From NCBI RefSeq assembly GCF_001061665.1, contig NZ_JVSP01000016.1, positions 186,001-250,000 of the forward strand: a DNA stretch of 64,000 nucleotides. The letters are read 5' to 3'. The notes under the pieces were generated by a model. That model saw only the letters and a list, made by a program, of their open reading frames with translations, was not told the origin of the DNA and searched no databases. Every line of letters starts with the position of its first letter. The stretch's first letter is position 1. The position numbers and the translations under genes are program-made. Origin of the DNA: Rothia mucilaginosa. GTDB taxonomy: Bacteria > Actinomycetota > Actinomycetes > Actinomycetales > Micrococcaceae. Positions 23,612 to 35,196 of the stretch are shown piece after piece.

Positions 23612-25924
23612 CTAGTTTTCTCTGGGCGAAGCGGGGTTGGCGTTGGCGAGGGCGGTGAGGTGCTCGAGGAGGGCGGCGCGCAGGTGCGCGGGCCCGGTGA
23701 TTTCGAGGGATCCGCGGTGTGCAATGACGGTGTCGATGATGTTCTTATCCCCGGCGCCAGCGATGTTGTTGTAGTGCACGCGGACGTGGGTGGTTTTGGT
23801 GCCTTTTCGGGCGTGCTCGGCGCTGCGGCGCTTGTAGGTTGCGGTGAGGTTTTCGAGGGTTTCGCCGCCGGGGGTGTGGTCGGTGGGGTGGATGCGCAGA
23901 TCGACGCTGGGGTTGGTGGTGGTTTTGTGCTGCTTGGCGTGCCAGTCGTTGACGGTGCTGTCGTGGTTGGGGCCGATGTAGTGCGGCTGTGCTTCGCCTG
24001 CGGGCGCGTAGCTGCTGATGCGGGTGAGGCGGAAGTTGCGCCAGAAGACAGGTTCGACGGGGGTGGGCTCGGCGCTGGTGGAATTGGTGGAGGCGCTCTC
24101 CCCCGCCGCGCTCGCGGGCTTCACGTTCTCAGCGGCAGGGCTCTCAGACAGCGTAGCGAGGTGGCGTGCCTCGCTGGCGCGGCACCACGCGTGCAGGTAG
24201 AGGCGGTCGCGGTGCAGGGTGAGCGCCACCGGGTCGACGACGCGTTCCGCATCGCGGGTGCCGTAGGTGATGGTGAGGGCGCGTCCGCTGGCGAGGGCGG
24301 CGCGCGCCTCCTGCAGCCGGGGGTCCTCGGGTGCGAAGAGCAGGTGCTTCGCGTAGTCGGTGGTGCGCGGGTAGGCCTCCGCGAGCGCGGCGAGGATCGC
24401 GGCCGGTCGCGGGTCGCCCGAGTACATCAGGTCGGCTGCGGAGAGCGTGAAGACGAGGATGGCCAGCTCGGTGTCGGTGAGGCGGGTGTAGTTGAGCAGG
24501 GTGAGGGATGCGGCGCCATCGCTGAATTCGGGGAGCAGGTTGAGACGGGCGGGGTTGGCTGCGTCGGGATCCTTAGCCTCAGAGTAGAAGGGTACCTCGT
24601 CGAATTCGTCGTAGATGGCGTTGATAATTTTGTCGAGCTTGGCTGCGTTGTTGTTGTCGACGCGGTAGAGGGGGTTGAGCTTGTTGAGGGGCATGGGCGT
24701 CTCGCCGTGGACGTCGGCCCAGCGGTCGGCGCGGTGCAGCGCGAGGATGAGGTCGTCGAGATCGTCGAGGGCGTCGTTGCGGGAACGCTGGGTTGTGGGG
24801 AACCACTTGGCGGGGGTTTCGGGTTCGCCGGTGTGCAGGGCGATGAGCTCACGCAAAAGTTCCCGCTGGGCGGCGTGGCTGTCCTGCTGGCGGCCGGTCA
24901 GGGTCTTGCCGGATGCGGGGTTCGCGTCGTGGTGCGGCTGGATGAGCCAGCCGGCGCAGGTGGCGTCGATGGCGCTGTCTACGGCGCCATAGGAGGGCAC
25001 GGTGAAGGGTGCGGCGGGGTCCTCGGCACCGGGGTTGGGGTCGAGGACGGCGAGGGTCTCTTCGTAGCCGCTGATTTTCTTGAGGCGGGTGCGGGCCTCG
25101 TAGGCGGGGTTGATGGGTGCGGGGTCGATGCTTGAGAACACGTCGAGGCTTCGGATGCGGTCGGTGCGGTAAGTGTAGGTCTTGCGCTCTTCGGGGGTTT
25201 TGTCGCCGAGGGGAAAGTGCGCGACGAGATACCAGGAGCCGTAGCTGTAGATGAGGCCGGCAACGCTGACCTTCTCGTAGGTTTTGATGTCTCCACCGCT
25301 GCCCTGATAAGTGAAGTTGAGGGTCTTGCGCTGCGCGTAGGCGGTGAAGAGCTCGTAGAGGTGCGGGTCGTCGCTGAAGTGCAGGCGCTGGATGTGCTCG
25401 CGGTAGGCGTGCAGGTCGCGGGCGCGCTGCTTGACGGTTTTGGTGAGGGGCGGCTGGTTGTCCCGTTTGATCTCTTCGATTCGGGTGACGTTAGCCGCGG
25501 TGAGCGCCTCGTCGGTGAGGTGCTCGCTCGTGAGCGCAATCTTGCGCAGGATGCGGTAGGCCTCGTCCTGCAGTTCGGTACCTTCCCAGCCGCGCAGCTC
25601 GGCGTTGAGGAGGCGGAATTCTTCGGCGGTGGGGTTCCACGCGGTCAGCGAGTCGGGGGCTTCTGCGTTGAGGCGGTAGCGTCCGGAGGTGTCGGTGGTG
25701 AAGTGGGTGATGCGCGCGCCGGCGTCGCGCAGGGTCTGCTTGGCGCGTTCGAAGGCGCGTTCGCTCGCCTCGGAGAGCGCGGCCCCCGGGGCGGAGGTCT
25801 TGATGCCCAGGAGGCTGAGGAACTCGTCGCGGCTGATGCCGTTGCGGCGGGTGGCTTCGTCGGGCGCCTCGGCGACGGTGGCGAGGCGGTTCAGGGTCAT
25901 GAAAAGCTGAGCTGCGGTGGACAT
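23612..25924 (-). CDS. pafBC: PafBC fused WYL-domain transcription regulator
   Basis: PafB and PafC form the actinobacterial DNA-damage activator that works independently of LexA/RecA. Here both are in one 770-residue chain: a helix-turn-helix (about 1-85), a first WYL domain with Trp231-Tyr232-Leu233, a second helical/HTH part from about 340, and a second WYL-like domain with RLYLHAW and RNFRLTRISS. A Ser/Thr/Glu/Pro-rich insertion lies within the second WYL region. Natural fusion is known in Arthrobacter. ATG 25924 is set by family start and by TATGAT 6 nt upstream. It stands between the FKBP genes and tatA as part of the paf-tat-helY neighbourhood. Confidence 0.9.
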   Translation of the reverse strand: MSTAAQLFMTLNRLATVAEAPDEATRRNGISRDEFLSLLGIKTSAPGAALSEASERAFERAKQTLRDAGARITHFTTDTSGRYRLNAEAPDSLTAWNPTAEEFRLLNAELRGWEGTELQDEAYRILRKIALTSEHLTDEALTAANVTRIEEIKRDNQPPLTKTVKQRARDLHAYREHIQRLHFSDDPHLYELFTAYAQRKTLNFTYQGSGGDIKTYEKVSVAGLIYSYGSWYLVAHFPLGDKTPEERKTYTYRTDRIRSLDVFSSIDPAPINPAYEARTRLKKISGYEETLAVLDPNPGAEDPAAPFTVPSYGAVDSAIDATCAGWLIQPHHDANPASGKTLTGRQQDSHAAQRELLRELIALHTGEPETPAKWFPTTQRSRNDALDDLDDLILALHRADRWADVHGETPMPLNKLNPLYRVDNNNAAKLDKIINAIYDEFDEVPFYSEAKDPDAANPARLNLLPEFSDGAASLTLLNYTRLTDTELAILVFTLSAADLMYSGDPRPAAILAALAEAYPRTTDYAKHLLFAPEDPRLQEARAALASGRALTITYGTRDAERVVDPVALTLHRDRLYLHAWCRASEARHLATLSESPAAENVKPASAAGESASTNSTSAEPTPVEPVFWRNFRLTRISSYAPAGEAQPHYIGPNHDSTVNDWHAKQHKTTTNPSVDLRIHPTDHTPGGETLENLTATYKRRSAEHARKGTKTTHVRVHYNNIAGAGDKNIIDTVIAHRGSLEITGPAHLRAALLEHLTALANANPASPREN

Positions 25925-25930
25925 GGTTCC

Positions 25931-25936
25931 ATCATA
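25931..25936 (-). promoter_or_regulatory. -10 box TATGAT of pafBC, leaderless type
   Basis: TATGAT on the minus strand is followed by 6 nt and the ATG at 25924. Confidence 0.6.
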
Positions 25937-26069
25937 CCGTCTGTGTTCCGCGGCACTCGTTGAGCGTGCGGGAAGGTTACGGGAGGGATACGGAAGAGCC
26001 GTAGGAAGGGCGAGCCGGTATAGAAAGTCCACCGGCACGCGCCATCAACACGCATCCCCGGTGCGCAAA

Positions 26070-27929: not shown

Positions 27930-27957
27930 CAGGGCTTGCCTAGCAGGGCTTGCCTAG
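27930..27957 (-). repeat. 14-bp tandem repeat over the pafA stop codon
   Basis: CAGGGCTTGCCTAG occurs twice in tandem, followed by a partial third copy. The pafA TAG stop (27954-27956) lies inside it, so repeat slippage could change the C-terminus. Confidence 0.75.
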
Positions 27958-29426
27958 CAGGGCGGCGGGAAAGCCGCCTCGCGGTGCTGACGCGCCTTGC
28001 CTTCCAGCAGGGTCAGTACCTCCTGCAGGCCCTCGCTGTCGGTCGCGAACGGGTCCTTGCACACCAGCGTGTGCTGCGGGTACGCGTTGAGCTTCAGATG
28101 CACCCAATCGACGGTGAACTGCTCCCCCGCCGCAACCGCCGCGTTAATGAAGCGCGAGCGCTGGGTGGCGCGGGTTGCCGGTGGCTCGGTCTTCGCGGCC
28201 TCTGCGGCGCCCTCGGGCAGGATGCGCTTGACCGCACCGCGGCGAACCAGGGCGTGGAAGACGCTACGGTCCGGATCGATGTCGTGGTACGCCAAATCCA
28301 ACTGGCGGATGCGGGGGCTCGCATAATCGGCAGGCTGGCCGGCCGCGCGGGCACGGGCAATGTACGCATCCAGCAGCTTCTTCTTGATGGCCCAGTCGAT
28401 TTCGGTGTCGATGCCGCTGTAGTCGCCGGATTCGATAGCATCCAGGGTGCGCTGCCACAGGTCCAGGGCGTATTCCACGTGGTGGTGATGCGCGCCGTAC
28501 TGCTGCACGTACTGGCGTGCCGCATCCAGGTAGTGACGCTGAACGCTCAACGCCGTGTAGTGCTTACCGTCCGTGGTTTCGAAGGTTGCGGTGCCGGTCA
28601 GATCGTGGCTGATAGCGCGCAGAGCCGCCGGAACAGACACAATATCCAGGCTCGTGACCGGGAAGCGATCCTCGAGCATGCGCAGCACCAGGTCGGTGCT
28701 GGCAATCTTCAGCAGCACGGTCGGCTCGGCCATGTTCGAGTCGCCGTTGATGACGTGCATGCGACGGAACTTCGAGGCGTCGGCGTGCGGCTCGTCACGG
28801 GTGTTAATGAGCGGGCGAGCGCGGGAGGTTGAGGTCGATGCCGCCTCCCAGATGTGGTCGGCACGCTGGGAGAACGAGTACGAGGGCACGCCCGTGCTGG
28901 AGGCCGGGTCGGTCGAACCGGGCATCGGGCCGCCATTCGGGTGGGTCTTACCGGCGCCGACCAGAATCTGGCGGGTCACCAGGAACGGCACGAGCTGCTT
29001 AATCAGGTCGTTGAACTGCAGTTTGCGGCTAATCAGGTAGTTCTCGTGGCTGCCGTAGGAGTTGCCCGCCGAATCCACGTTGTTCTTGAACAGGTACAGT
29101 TCGCCGTCAAGGGGGCGGCCCTCGGAACCTGCGAGCAGGCGCTTGCGGGCGGTGCGCGCCAGGTCGGCGAAGAGCAGCTCGCCGGCGCGTTCCTGTGCGA
29201 GCAGCTCGTCGATGCTGCTACATTCGGCGGAGGCGTATTCGGGGTGCGAGCCGACGTCCAGGTAGAGGCGGCCGCCGTTGGGCAGGAAGACGTTCGTCGA
29301 ACGCCACTGGTCCAGTACGGGCTTGAAGAGGGCGGCGGCGGATTCTTCGATGCTCAGCCGGCCCATGCCGTGCGGGACGTAGCTGAGCCCGAATTCGCTC
29401 TCAATGCCGAAAATGCGGTGTTCCAT
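27954..29426 (-). CDS. pafA: Pup--protein ligase PafA
   Basis: PafA uses ATP to join the C-terminal Glu of Pup to lysines of target proteins. The 490-residue protein has the nucleotide-binding IFGIESEFGL (Glu9), the catalytic Asp57 in LYLDVGSHPEY, NVDSAGNSYGSHENYL, NTRDEPHAD and a C-terminal Pup-binding domain. It starts 29 nt after pup, so the two genes are surely co-transcribed. In mycobacteria prcB and prcA stand between pup and pafA; here there is no room for them. The extreme C-terminus ends in PPPC next to a short tandem repeat. Confidence 0.95.
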   Translation of the reverse strand: MEHRIFGIESEFGLSYVPHGMGRLSIEESAAALFKPVLDQWRSTNVFLPNGGRLYLDVGSHPEYASAECSSIDELLAQERAGELLFADLARTARKRLLAGSEGRPLDGELYLFKNNVDSAGNSYGSHENYLISRKLQFNDLIKQLVPFLVTRQILVGAGKTHPNGGPMPGSTDPASSTGVPSYSFSQRADHIWEAASTSTSRARPLINTRDEPHADASKFRRMHVINGDSNMAEPTVLLKIASTDLVLRMLEDRFPVTSLDIVSVPAALRAISHDLTGTATFETTDGKHYTALSVQRHYLDAARQYVQQYGAHHHHVEYALDLWQRTLDAIESGDYSGIDTEIDWAIKKKLLDAYIARARAAGQPADYASPRIRQLDLAYHDIDPDRSVFHALVRRGAVKRILPEGAAEAAKTEPPATRATQRSRFINAAVAAGEQFTVDWVHLKLNAYPQHTLVCKDPFATDSEGLQEVLTLLEGKARQHREAAFPPPC

Positions 29427-29455
29427 GATGATGACCCGGCGCGCAGGTGCGTCGG

Positions 29456-29650
29456 TTACTCGCCGCCCTTCTGGACGAAGCCGGTCACGAAGTCCTCGGC
29501 GTTCTCGGCCAGCAGGCCATCGATTTCGTCGAGCAGGTCGTCAACCTCGCTCACGTCAGAAACCACGTGGGAGGCGGCGAGGGTCAGTTCCTGCTCCTGC
29601 TCGGCGGCGGTGGTTTCGGTCTGCTGCGCGTTAATGCGTTCGCGGCTCAT
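29456..29650 (-). CDS. pup: Prokaryotic ubiquitin-like protein Pup
   Basis: Pup is the small disordered protein tag attached by PafA. The 64-residue protein has the central coiled region (VSDVSEVDDLLDEIDGLL) and the conserved tail NAEDFVTGFVQKGGE. It ends in Glu rather than Gln, so it can be ligated without prior deamidation by Dop. GGAGAG precedes the ATG. It lies between dop and pafA. Confidence 0.95.
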   Translation of the reverse strand: MSRERINAQQTETTAAEQEQELTLAASHVVSDVSEVDDLLDEIDGLLAENAEDFVTGFVQKGGE

Positions 29651-29851
29651 GGTTCTCTCCTTGAGGTTGGTTAGGTTAGTTAGTTTGGTTAGTTGGGTTT
29701 GGTTAGTCGGTCTGTGGCGGAGGCGGTGGTGCCGGTCGGCGCGGGTTGCGTTCCCGCGCCGGATGCACCGGATGCACCGCCTCAGTGGGTTTTGTGGTTT
29801 TCACCCTTCCGAATGGGGGTATCAGCCCCGGGACGGAATGTGAGTTCATGT

Positions 29852-29890
29852 GGGTTTGGGGCTGAAACGCCCCGCGTCGGGCCCAAACCC
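29852..29890 (-). terminator. dop terminator
   Basis: GGGTTTGGG/CCCAAACCC (29852-29860 with 29882-29890) forms a 9-bp stem just past the dop stop. A GGTTAG-rich stretch at about 29655-29710 lies between here and pup. Confidence 0.6.
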
Positions 29891-29907
29891 CGACACTGCC
29901 CCGCGCC

Positions 29908-31734
29908 CTAGCGCAGGCCGTTCAGCAGCGCATCCGAGTGGTTTGCCTCCTCCAGCAGCGGCTCCACCTCGGCGGCACCGTAGCGGGTCGGCTCCATCAT
30001 CGTAAAGCGAGTCAGCTCCTTCGAATAGCGGCCACGGCACGAAACCGTATCCCAGTTAATACCCAGAATCTCCTCGGGCCAGCGGGACATCAGCGTGCCG
30101 CGCAAAAACGCGCGAGTCTCACGCGGCGGCTCAGACACCGCACGCTCCACCTGCTCCGCAGAGAACAGCGTGCGCATGCGCCCGCGCGCCACCAGACGAT
30201 GGTACAGGCTCTTCGACGGATCAATATCAGCGTACTGCAAATCCAGCGCCTTCAGCTTCGGGTTCGCGTAATCCACGCCCTTCTCAACGTAGCCGCGCAC
30301 CAGCGCGTACTTCGCCACCCAATCCAGGCGGTCCGCCAGCGAGAGCGGGTTGGTCTCCAGGGCGTCCAGCACCTCGCCCCACAGGTCGAGAATCTGCGCG
30401 GTCGCCGAATCCACACCCGCCGGGTTCGACTCCTCGTGCGCGCGGGACGCCTCGTAGTAGGCGCGCTGAATCTGCAGGGCGCTCGCCGAATCGCTCGTCG
30501 ACACCGGGTTCGGCAAGGTCGCCGAAGAAGGAGCCAGCGGCAGCTGCGCCGACAGCGACAGGTCGTGGCTGACCGCGTGCATCGCCGCCACCGGGTCGGA
30601 CAGGCGCACACCCGGCAGCACCGGGTGCTGCTCGCTGTGCGACTCAATCAGGTTCATGACCAGCGCCGCAGTGCCGAACTTCAACAGGTTCGAGTAGTGC
30701 GAGAGGTTCGCATCCGCCGGAATCACGTGCAGGCGGCGGTACTTCGACTCGTCCGCGTGCGGCTCGTCGCGCGTGTTCACAATCGGGCGGCGAATCGTGG
30801 TCTCTAGACCAATCGTGCGCTCAAAGAAATCGGCGCGCGAACTAATCTGGAAGCCAGGAACCTCACCGTGCGTGCCGATACCCACGCGGCCCGCACCCGT
30901 GAAAATCGCGCGCGTGGCGAAGAACGGCAGGAGCGCATCCGCCACCTGCTCGAACGGAACCTCGCGGCTAATCAGGTAGTTCTCGTGCGCGCCGTAGGAC
31001 TGACCCTTCGAATCGGTGTTGTTCTTGTACAGCTTCACCTGCGGCAGGTCCTCGGCGTGCTTGCCCAGCTCCACGAGCGCCTGGTAGGCCAGCGCGTCAC
31101 CGGCGGCATCGTACAGCACCGCGTCGGCGGGGGTCAGAACCTCGGGCGACGAATACTCCGGATGCGCGTGGTCCACGTACAGGCGCGCACCGTTGGGCAG
31201 GATCGCGTTCATCGTCACGCGGTCCCAATCCAGACGCTCCGGGAAACCACCGCGGCCGTGCACGCCGGCGAGCGCATCCAGGGCGCTGCGCGGCTCGGCG
31301 GGTTCGCCCGGTGCCTGCACGCCCGCCTCGCGCATAATCTCCAGGGCGATGTCCTGGCTGGTCAGCTCGGTGCGGGTGTGGGTCATCTGGCTCGAGTGCG
31401 CGGTGGAGGCGTCCTGCACCCGGCCGAAGGCGTCGCGCAGGGGCGACTCGGACTCCCCCAGCCACTGGCCCTCGGGTGCAGCGGGGGCGCTGGGTTCGGT
31501 CGAGTAGTTCTCGGCTTGGCGGGCCTCCTCGGCGACGAGCTCGGCGGCCAGGGCGCGGCGTTGCAGCTGCTCGCGGAAGGCCTCGCCGCGGCGGAAGGCG
31601 AGCTTGGCGTAGGTGTTGACCACCAGTGCGGACAGCACGGTCGGGTTGGTGCCCGGCGCGGAGGGTGCGATGACGCCGTATTCGGTTTCGGCGCCCATGA
31701 TGCGGTGCACGCCGTAGCTGGGTGTGGAGTTCAT
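29908..31734 (-). CDS. dop: Depupylase/deamidase Dop with enlarged N-terminal loops
   Basis: Dop removes Pup from substrates and, where Pup ends in Gln, deamidates it. The 608-residue chain shows IMGAETEYGV (Glu16 for nucleotide), LYVDHAHPEYSS (catalytic Asp188), NNTDSKGQSYGAHENYL and NTRDEPHAD. Usual length is about 500: extra sequence sits at about residues 50-90 and in the Dop-specific loop (about 104-170). Since this Pup already ends in GGE, depupylation is probably the main activity. GGAGAA precedes the ATG; the gene follows arc by 121 nt. Confidence 0.95.
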   Translation of the reverse strand: MNSTPSYGVHRIMGAETEYGVIAPSAPGTNPTVLSALVVNTYAKLAFRRGEAFREQLQRRALAAELVAEEARQAENYSTEPSAPAAPEGQWLGESESPLRDAFGRVQDASTAHSSQMTHTRTELTSQDIALEIMREAGVQAPGEPAEPRSALDALAGVHGRGGFPERLDWDRVTMNAILPNGARLYVDHAHPEYSSPEVLTPADAVLYDAAGDALAYQALVELGKHAEDLPQVKLYKNNTDSKGQSYGAHENYLISREVPFEQVADALLPFFATRAIFTGAGRVGIGTHGEVPGFQISSRADFFERTIGLETTIRRPIVNTRDEPHADESKYRRLHVIPADANLSHYSNLLKFGTAALVMNLIESHSEQHPVLPGVRLSDPVAAMHAVSHDLSLSAQLPLAPSSATLPNPVSTSDSASALQIQRAYYEASRAHEESNPAGVDSATAQILDLWGEVLDALETNPLSLADRLDWVAKYALVRGYVEKGVDYANPKLKALDLQYADIDPSKSLYHRLVARGRMRTLFSAEQVERAVSEPPRETRAFLRGTLMSRWPEEILGINWDTVSCRGRYSKELTRFTMMEPTRYGAAEVEPLLEEANHSDALLNGLR

Positions 31735-31855
31735 GGGGTTCTCCTGAAGGGTTCCTATATAAATTCTGGACCTGCGGTAATGCCGGTCGTGTCGCGGGAT
31801 AAGCGCTCGGTGAGTGCCGGATGAGCGCGACCCGGCTCATGCTTGTAAAGGCGGT

Positions 31856-33712
31856 TTAGCGGGCCGGTTCCACCGACACGAGGCGGCCGCGCACACCGGC
31901 GACGGTGAGCGCATCCTCGATATCGGGCAGAGGCGGCAAATCCACCTGGTCCTCAAACTCGGCGCGCACCGCCTCCAGCAGGTGGCGGGTACCGATACCC
32001 ACACCGGCCGCGCCGTTTACCTCGGCCGCACCGGAAGCACCGGCGGCGGTCAGCGCCTGCAGCTGCTCCTTAATTGCGGCCTTCTTCGCGCGGTCCACAA
32101 TATTGCGAATCACCGCACCCGAGGCGAAGTCGCCGCGGTAGAGCGTGTGCGTGGAGAGGTGGCCGGTCGCGGCGTTCGAAGAGCCCACAATCATGGAGGA
32201 ATCCACGGTCGCCACGGCGTACGCGGTGGAGGGGGTACGCGCGTACAGCTGGCCCGTTGCGGCGGCAATCATCGAGGTCAGGGCGGCGCGGACGGATCCG
32301 GCGGCGGCCACCTCCGCGGCGTCTAGCGGCAGGTCCTCGGTCAGGTACAGGCCGAAGATTTCGGCGGCACCGGCGGCGTCCGGGCGGTTAATGCGAATCT
32401 TCAGGTCCAGGCGGCCAGGGCGCATCACGGCGGCGTCGATGAGGTCCTCACGGTTGGTCGCGCCAATCACGATGACGTTCTGTAGCGACTCCACGCCGTC
32501 GATTTCGGCCAGCAGCTGCGGCACGATGGTCGTCTCAATATCGGAGGAACGGCCCGAACCGCGCATGCGGAACAGCGACTCCATCTCGTCGAAGAACACG
32601 ACGACCGGGTGACCGGCCTCGGCCTTCTCGCGGGCGGCCACGAAAATATCGCGAATCTGGCGCTCGGTTTCGCCCACGAACTTATCGAGCAGCTCGGGGC
32701 CCTTAATGTTCAGGAAGTAGCCGCGGGTATTCGACCCCGGGTTCAGCGCGGCGGCGCGGGCGGCCAGGGAGTTCGCCACGGCCTTAGCAATCATGGTCTT
32801 ACCATTACCGGGAGGGCCGTAGAGCAGAATACCCTTGGGCGGTGCCAGGTGGTAGCGCTCGAAAATCTCGGGGTGCAGGTAGGGCAGCTCCACCGCGTCG
32901 CGAATCTGCTCGATCTGCGCGCCCAGGCCACCGATCTGGCTGTAGGTGACGTCCGGGATTTCCTCAAGCACGAGCTCCTGCGAGCGGGAGGCGGGCACCT
33001 GCGAGGTAATCATGCGGGTGCGCGTATCGAGGGTCACCGCGTCGCCGGTGCGCAACTGCTCAACATCCAGGGAACCGGCCACGCGCGCCACCTGCTGGGC
33101 GCCCGAGGAGGTATCGACCAGCACGCGCTCGCCGTCGAGCACCTCGCGCACGGTCACCACGTCGCCAAAGGGCTCGGTGTCCAGGGCGACCACGGCCTCG
33201 GACTTGTCGTTGAGGAGCACCGTCATGCCGGGGGTGAGGGTGGACAGGTCAATCAGCGGGGACACCGGAATACGCATGAGGCGGCCGCCAACCTGCACGT
33301 CCAGGTAGGTGTCAATCTCGGCGGGGGTCTTATCGTCGGCAACCTGCTCGTAGGTCATGGTCTGGCCCTCGTGCACGGCCATCACAATCGCCGAGTTCAG
33401 CGGCGGCATGACGTTCTGCGAGAGGGAGGCGCGCAGGCGCTCCACCTGGTAGCGCATGCTGGTGATGGCCTCGACGAGCTTGCGGTTCTTCTCCCCCGCG
33501 CCGCGAATCTGTCGGCTCATATTATCGCGGGTTGCCTCGGCGGCGGTGAGGCGACGCAGCACGGCGTCGTACTCCTGCGCGCTGACCGGCTGGGAACCGG
33601 GCAGGGAGGTCGAACCGAACGCGGCGGAGTAGTGCGGTGCGGCGGATGCGGCACTGTGTGCGGTGCCGTGCTGCGGGGTTCCGTTGCGGTCTGCGGATTC
33701 GTGGGGGGTCAC
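31856..33712 (-). CDS. arc: AAA ATPase ARC (Mpa) lacking the proteasome-docking tail
   Basis: ARC/Mpa is the hexameric ATPase that binds Pup through its coiled coil and unfolds pupylated proteins. The 618-residue protein has a disordered start, coiled coil at about 45-98, two OB domains (about 100-245), Walker A GPPGNGKT at 299-306 and Walker B FFDEME at 373-378. In proteasome-bearing species it ends in a GQYL-like motif that docks on the 20S ring; here it ends SVEPAR. The start is GTG with AGGAGAG upstream. It leads the arc-dop-pup-pafA series. Confidence 0.95.
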   Translation of the reverse strand: MTPHESADRNGTPQHGTAHSAASAAPHYSAAFGSTSLPGSQPVSAQEYDAVLRRLTAAEATRDNMSRQIRGAGEKNRKLVEAITSMRYQVERLRASLSQNVMPPLNSAIVMAVHEGQTMTYEQVADDKTPAEIDTYLDVQVGGRLMRIPVSPLIDLSTLTPGMTVLLNDKSEAVVALDTEPFGDVVTVREVLDGERVLVDTSSGAQQVARVAGSLDVEQLRTGDAVTLDTRTRMITSQVPASRSQELVLEEIPDVTYSQIGGLGAQIEQIRDAVELPYLHPEIFERYHLAPPKGILLYGPPGNGKTMIAKAVANSLAARAAALNPGSNTRGYFLNIKGPELLDKFVGETERQIRDIFVAAREKAEAGHPVVVFFDEMESLFRMRGSGRSSDIETTIVPQLLAEIDGVESLQNVIVIGATNREDLIDAAVMRPGRLDLKIRINRPDAAGAAEIFGLYLTEDLPLDAAEVAAAGSVRAALTSMIAAATGQLYARTPSTAYAVATVDSSMIVGSSNAATGHLSTHTLYRGDFASGAVIRNIVDRAKKAAIKEQLQALTAAGASGAAEVNGAAGVGIGTRHLLEAVRAEFEDQVDLPPLPDIEDALTVAGVRGRLVSVEPAR

Positions 33713-34083: not shown

Positions 34084-35196
34084 TTATTCAGCGGCCTCGG
34101 CGTCCTGCGCGGCCTCAGTGCTCTGCGTAGCCTCGGCGGTCTTCTCAGGCTCCAGGCCGTTTTGCGCGGTACCGTTTTGTTCCAGCGCAATCTCGTTCGC
34201 GCGGGCGGCGTGCGCGGCAAGGTTCTTCGCATCGCGGGCTGCGCGGCGAATCTTCTTGTCGGTCACCTCGCGCTCACCCACGTTCATGGGAATCCACGCG
34301 TTCATATCCTCTTCAGAGAAGTCAGTCTTGGAGGCGCGACGCTTCGGCGCCAGGCGCACCGCACCGTCAGCCAGGCGGCGAGCCACAATCAGGAACGCGG
34401 TGTGTGCAACCATGCGGTGGTCGGGGCGGACCGCCAGGCCCTCCACGTGCCAGCCGCGCACAATGGTCTCGTCGCACTCGGGTTCGGTGAAGCGGCCGTC
34501 CAGGCGCATGCCCTCAACCAGGCGGGACATCTGGGTCACGGTCGCAACGTAGCAGATGAGCACGCCGCCGGGTGCGAGCGCCTCCGCAACAGCGTCCAGG
34601 CATTCCCAGGGTGCGAGCATGTCGAGTACGACGCGGTCGACGCTGCCGGGCTCTTCGACCTGCGGCAGGGTGTCCTGCAGGTCGCCGATGCTCAGCTTCC
34701 ACGCCGGGTGGGGGCCACCGAACATGGTCTCAATGTTGCCGCGGGCGACGTCGGCGAACTCTTCACGACGCTCGAAGGAGTGCACGCATCCGTAGTCGCC
34801 GACCGCACGCAGCAGGGCGATGGACAGTGCACCGGAGCCAACGCCGGCCTCAACGACGCGCGCGCCGGGGAAGATGTCTGCCTTGACGATGATCTGGGCG
34901 GCGTCCTTGGGGTAGACGACGGCCGCGCCGCGCGGCATGGAGAGCACGAAGTCTTTGTAGAGGGGGCGCAGCGCCTGGTAGAGGATGCCGTGGGTGTTGG
35001 CGATGACGGTGCCTTCGGGTGCGCCGATGAGGTCGTCGTGCTTGAGGAAGCCCTTGTGAGAGTGGTATTCGCCGCCTTCGGCGAGGGTGATGGTGGTGAT
35101 GCGGCCGCGTTCGTCAGTGATTTGGACGCGCTCGCCGGGGCGGAAGGGGCCGCGGCGGTTGATTGCGCCGGTGGGGGTGGGGGTGCCGCTGCTCAC
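34084..35196 (-). CDS. trmI: tRNA (adenine-58-N1)-methyltransferase TrmI
   Basis: TrmI methylates N1 of A58 in the tRNA T-loop using S-adenosylmethionine. The 370-residue protein has an N-terminal beta domain (to about 75), the SAM motif VVEAGVGSGALS (114-125), VLDMLAPWE near 190 and an added charged Ala/Glu-rich tail after about 335. The start is GTG preceded by GAGGAGA. trmI upstream of arc is conserved in actinobacteria. Confidence 0.93.
   Translation of the reverse strand: MSSGTPTPTGAINRRGPFRPGERVQITDERGRITTITLAEGGEYHSHKGFLKHDDLIGAPEGTVIANTHGILYQALRPLYKDFVLSMPRGAAVVYPKDAAQIIVKADIFPGARVVEAGVGSGALSIALLRAVGDYGCVHSFERREEFADVARGNIETMFGGPHPAWKLSIGDLQDTLPQVEEPGSVDRVVLDMLAPWECLDAVAEALAPGGVLICYVATVTQMSRLVEGMRLDGRFTEPECDETIVRGWHVEGLAVRPDHRMVAHTAFLIVARRLADGAVRLAPKRRASKTDFSEEDMNAWIPMNVGEREVTDKKIRRAARDAKNLAAHAARANEIALEQNGTAQNGLEPEKTAEATQSTEAAQDAEAAE

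Follow-up and report, generated by a model that had tools for sequence, protein, structure and literature searches.

A pupylation locus without a proteasome in Rothia mucilaginosa, and a possible remodelling role for its unfoldase ARC

The DNA analysed here, called the window, is a 64,000-nucleotide stretch of Rothia mucilaginosa (GCF_001061665.1, contig NZ_JVSP01000016.1, positions 186,001-250,000), and all positions below are counted within it. It contains four genes of a pupylation locus, all on the minus strand. These are arc (31856..33712), which encodes a Mpa/ARC proteasomal-type AAA ATPase of 618 residues (TIGR03689, 598.8 bits against a cut-off of 504.75); dop (29908..31734), which encodes a depupylase/deamidase of 608 residues (TIGR03688, 534.5 bits); pup (29456..29650), 64 residues (PF05639, 62.4 bits; TIGR03687, 62.8 bits); and pafA (27954..29426), which encodes the Pup ligase, 490 residues (TIGR03686, 577.3 bits). 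All four reading frames are open, and each product scores above the cut-off of its curated model. Between pup and pafA, at the position occupied by prcB and prcA in relatives, there are only 29 bases (29427..29455, minus strand), which is too short for a remnant of prcBA; the spacing in relatives with a proteasome is 1.48-1.74 kb. The coordinates and models thus agree with an earlier note on this DNA, which described four intact genes and a 29-base gap.

The neighbours of the locus are the usual ones for pupylation loci. Upstream is a TrmI-type tRNA m1A58 methyltransferase (34084..35196, minus strand; PF14801, PF08704). Downstream is a single 808-residue protein with two WYL stretches (23612..26038, minus strand; PF13280), which we take to be a PafBC-type regulator from its position and general knowledge, and two further reading frames there look FKBP-like by eye. 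No Rfam families or tRNAs were found in or near the locus. The closest public relatives are Rothia, and ARC is about 95% identical in Rothia sp. RSM386.

Profile searches detected the AAA domain and both OB domains in ARC, which can be aligned to Mpa (5kwa and 7px9). PafA and Dop have the carboxylate-amine ligase fold with an intact active-site motif, namely NGxRLYLDVGSHPEYA in PafA (aligned to 4b0t) and NGARLYVDHAHPEYS in Dop (aligned to 4b0r). Pup has the C-terminal GG(Q/E) of a pupylation system: it reads ...VQKGGE, with the GGE codons at 29459-29467, and its 32 C-terminal residues can be aligned to Pup in 3m91. Because Pup already ends in GGE, Dop is retained here for depupylation and not for deamidation, an argument made before for C. 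glutamicum, where Pup also ends in Glu (PMC3511204). The Dop-loop region is enlarged (31195..31674, minus strand), with 160 residues, where the median of relatives is about 103-106. None of the relatives measured exceeds it; two of them, L103 and L104, reach 155 and 145 residues.

The genome was searched for proteasome subunits using PF00227. It comprises 2,236,745 bases (2.24 Mb) in 16 contigs, and is listed as 100% complete. There were no matches anywhere in it. The model does match in the E. coli and B. subtilis controls, and rightly gives no match in C. glutamicum. A proteasome encoded at another place in the genome would have contradicted the earlier note, but none was found. Bpa was found neither in this genome nor in any tail-less genome tested (that is, any whose ARC lacks the C-terminal GQYL). 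Cpa was considered as another 20S-type unfoldase and rejected: only two frames have two AAA matches, of 879 and 856 residues, and by size and order these are judged to be ClpC and ClpB. Neither the 20S core subunits nor the docking motif of a Pup-proteasome system is present in the genome. This is a proteasome-less pupylation locus, in which pup adjoins pafA and there is no prcA or prcB elsewhere, and the likeness to Corynebacterium proposed in the note is supported.

The C-terminus of ARC reads ...GRLVSVEPAR and has no GQYL, as the note had read it. GQYL is also absent in every frame just downstream of the arc stop, which rules out a frameshift hiding the tail. An AlphaFold model of ARC (mean pLDDT 73, so that local detail is moderately confident; about 80 in the last blocks) places the last strand of the β-grasp domain at residues 610-616 (31865..31885, minus strand). 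Model and alignment together show that the protein stops two residues past this strand. Proteasome-bearing relatives have about 20 more residues here, made up of a spacer and GQYL, and in the alignment proteasome-less ARCs end near the last strand or have unrelated, poorly conserved ends.

The second known contact between Mpa and the proteasome is a β-hairpin of the β-grasp domain, where a role has been described for Mpa D504/K505 (PMC8755798). In the window ARC the loop of this hairpin is at residues 505-518 (32159..32200, minus strand; model strands 497-504 and 519-525). In the 14 GQYL Micrococcaceae with a readable hairpin, the hairpin sequence is ANG(D/E)xE; in the window a different, longer loop takes its place. 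This ARC lacks the two proteasome contacts that are known, the acidic hairpin as well as the GQYL tail, and the conclusion that this ARC has no known way of docking on a proteasome is supported.

Among 120 related genomes, 46 have both GQYL and a proteasome, 69 have neither, four have only the proteasome and one has only GQYL. The two states match in 115 of the 120, a table that is descriptive because the genomes share kinship. GQYL is missing in 69/70 proteasome-less genomes. In a sign test on independent pairs, all four informative pairs agree, which is too few for significance. The note had counted Pup-GGE as a third independent feature beside the tail and the gap. The tail and the gap stand, but the third does not: Pup-GGE occurs in 6/70 proteasome-less and 6/57 proteasome-bearing distinct loci, rare to a similar degree in both, and is rejected as a sign that the proteasome is absent. 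Most Rothia have Pup ending in GGQ.

Five Brevibacterium loci (L157, L164, L169, L175 and L178) have a proteasome and an ARC end that resembles D-x-x-L-(L/I) and not GQYL; this is perhaps another docking tail.

In the Micrococcaceae as a whole, the proteasome (PF00227) is present in 106/197 genomes and missing in 91. Pup was found in 196 (the sole miss is a draft that is 82% complete) and is retained in 90 of the 91 proteasome-less genomes; ARC is likewise above its cut-off in 196/197. None of the 13 Rothia genomes has a proteasome. Of 158 genomes sampled evenly across the class, 134 have Pup and 129 a proteasome, and six have Pup without a proteasome. Against this background the Micrococcaceae stand out as a hot spot of proteasome-less pupylation.

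This arrangement is not new. A 2012 review describes actinobacteria that have pupylation genes but no proteasome, in which pup lies directly before pafA, the ATPase is retained without its C-terminal motif, and the enzymes are more variable (PMC3511204). The examples include Micrococcus luteus, Kocuria rhizophila, Bifidobacterium (B. adolescentis) and corynebacteria (PMC3511204, PMC8223512, PMC4254994). The locus arrangement and missing ARC tail are thus already described for relatives, which Rothia joins. The C. glutamicum-type locus shares the order arc-dop-pup-pafA with pup directly before pafA, the absence of prcBA and Bpa, an ARC without the C-terminal motif, and a Pup ending in Glu (PMC3511204, PMC8223512, PMC4254994), although the GGE end of the window Pup is common to only the six of 70 proteasome-less loci noted above. 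The locus in the window differs in its genus, Rothia, and in its enlarged Dop-loop region and enlarged ARC hairpin. The Pup-proteasome loci of Mycobacterium and the GQYL Micrococcaceae have the same four proteins, order and neighbours, but have prcB-prcA between pup and pafA, an ARC/Mpa ending in GQYL, and usually Bpa. Cutibacterium (Propionibacterium) acnes represents another break-up of the system, in which the opposite half was kept, namely prcBA without ARC or Bpa (PMC4254994). In the open-access full texts searched, no paper was found that names Rothia in connection with proteasome-less pupylation, and none that describes a tail-less ARC in genomes with a proteasome.

The order in which tail and proteasome were lost was addressed using a tree of ARC, Dop and PafA with 86 rows. 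Brevibacterium was left out, because long-branch attraction had probably caused it to nest within the family in an earlier tree. GQYL is entirely missing from one clade of 54 rows (SH-aLRT 100). In four rows of this clade, namely G001 and three of genus g21, prcB-prcA still lie between pup and pafA. The Thr-Thr with which mature PrcB begins and the pocket lysine of PrcA are conserved in all four. In a PrcBA tree they lie beside other Micrococcaceae on long branches, for which vertical descent with faster evolution accounts better than recent transfer.

Complete prcB-prcA, an ARC without GQYL and no Bpa are found together at L223 (G001), L238 (G093), L239 (G110) and L240 (G155), where the proteasome is possibly uncoupled from ARC.

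The mean root-to-tip change in ARC is 1.46 in tail-less rows without a proteasome, 1.43 in tail-less rows with one, and 0.64 in the GQYL rows of the family. The change of pace thus goes with the tail and not with the loss of the genes, although most tail-less rows belong to a single clade. The opposite combination is found in G008, where ARC ends in GQYL, yet the pup-pafA gap (L200) is only 272 bases. The gap encodes a fusion of a PrcB start, resembling the propeptide, with the C-terminus of PrcA (58% identity over 43 residues, E 5e-10), and there is a partial Bpa match elsewhere in the genome. Subject to the caveat that G008 is a draft, this looks like a fresh deletion of prcBA, with the prcB-prcA fusion as its fossil, and indicates that loss of prcBA before loss of the tail also occurs. 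On the 86-row tree the proteasome state changes at least seven times; with no regain there would be about 11 or more losses, counted by eye on a tree in which g10, g11 and g13, genera on long branches, are of uncertain deep placement.

These results suggest that uncoupling of ARC can precede loss of the proteasome genes in the clade of the window. For the clade of Rothia and Micrococcus/Citricoccus we lean slightly towards a single loss of the ARC tail while the proteasome was still encoded, after which prcBA would have evolved fast and been deleted several times, surviving in G001 and part of g21. In that case the switch to unfolding without a proteasome would have led to the loss and not followed from it. 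The newer points here are the four genomes that combine a proteasome with a tail-less ARC, and the fossil fusion in G008, and these five genomes are intermediates with which the order of events could be tested.

The features with which ARC would handle substrates are conserved. The pore loop F345-V346-G347 (32672..32680, minus strand), which corresponds to Mpa F341-V342-G343 (PMC8755798), is intact, and V346 and G347 are invariant among 22 ARCs. The Walker and arginine-finger segments are conserved, and the long N-terminal helix (45-100) is kept in the model. Compared with Rothia sp. RSM386, dN/dS is 0.063 for ARC, 0.065 for Dop, 0.066 for PafA and 0.015 for Pup. Purifying selection of this kind shows a machinery in use.

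The reading that we prefer, with a probability of about 0.7, is that the pupylation system works, that its 20S proteasome has been lost, and that PafA, ARC and Dop carry out a reversible cycle of tagging, unfolding and untagging. PafA would attach Pup to substrate lysines directly through its C-terminal Glu, which therefore needs no deamidation. We infer that the coiled coils of ARC then grip the Pup helix, and that ARC threads first the N-terminus of Pup and next the substrate through its pore, which would unfold the tagged protein or dismantle a tagged complex. The unfolded chain would be let go below ARC, because no protease is docked there. Dop would strip off Pup, leaving the substrate free to refold and making the tag available again. 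The output would be reversible remodelling, with release of bound cargo or disassembly of complexes, and not degradation. This is in keeping with the stimulation of depupylation by Mpa in vitro, and with the proposal that C. glutamicum ARC is an unfoldase of pupylated ferritin (PMC3511204, PMC8223512). The function of ARC may have changed in part, as it evolves about twice as fast in the tail-less clade as in its GQYL relatives.

Pup might instead be mainly a non-degradative regulatory tag, affecting activity or localisation, with ARC chiefly presenting substrates to Dop. The effect of Mpa on depupylation in vitro (PMC3511204) would fit this, as would the retention of Dop where Pup-GGE requires no deamidation, and the enlarged Dop-loop region. 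By sequence the two models are hard to tell apart, but the invariant pore loop, the Walker motifs and the arginine-finger region suggest selection for real pulling, and we consider a mainly regulatory tag unlikely. It is also unlikely that ARC now feeds another protease, with Pup still marking proteins for degradation. The best candidate is ClpP1P2, since the genome encodes both ClpP subunits, and a new contact could have arisen in the β-grasp hairpin, which is enlarged in the subgroup of the window. However, no ClpP-binding loop of the IGF/LGF type was found in the ARC sequence, and the C-termini of proteasome-less relatives are variable, with no common replacement motif. Where the note had left ARC either serving another protease or acting as an unfoldase alone, the second half thus fares better. 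ClpP could still degrade unfolded protein released by ARC, which is a point against pure remodelling. That the locus is a decaying remnant, as faster evolution of the Pup enzymes in tail-less lineages might hint, is very improbable, being contradicted by a dN/dS of about 0.06 or lower in all four genes and by the presence of Pup in 90/91 proteasome-less genomes.

For reversible remodelling by ARC, a non-heme ferritin is a plausible candidate substrate by analogy with C. glutamicum, and the window's genome has a non-heme ferritin-like gene (G000:C14:30179-30586). In 18 of 46 proteasome-less genomes, five of them Rothia, PF00210 matches only at Dps-like scores. Eight of the 18 were checked, including all five Rothia, and the best NCBIfam family was Dps in each, at scores slightly below the curated cut-off. 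These genomes without ferritin argue against release of ferritin iron as a universal reason for keeping pupylation, and ferritin is rejected as the general cause.

The locus shows a ubiquitin-like tagging system outliving its protease. With the proteasome lost repeatedly and Pup almost never, the Micrococcaceae are a natural experiment on non-degradative roles of pupylation. Gene spacing also varies among the relatives: in four loci of genus g14, probably Micrococcus (L246, L247, L248 and L262), pup lies 2.8-4.3 kb after arc, compared with the usual distance of about 1.6 kb, with additional sequence between the two genes.
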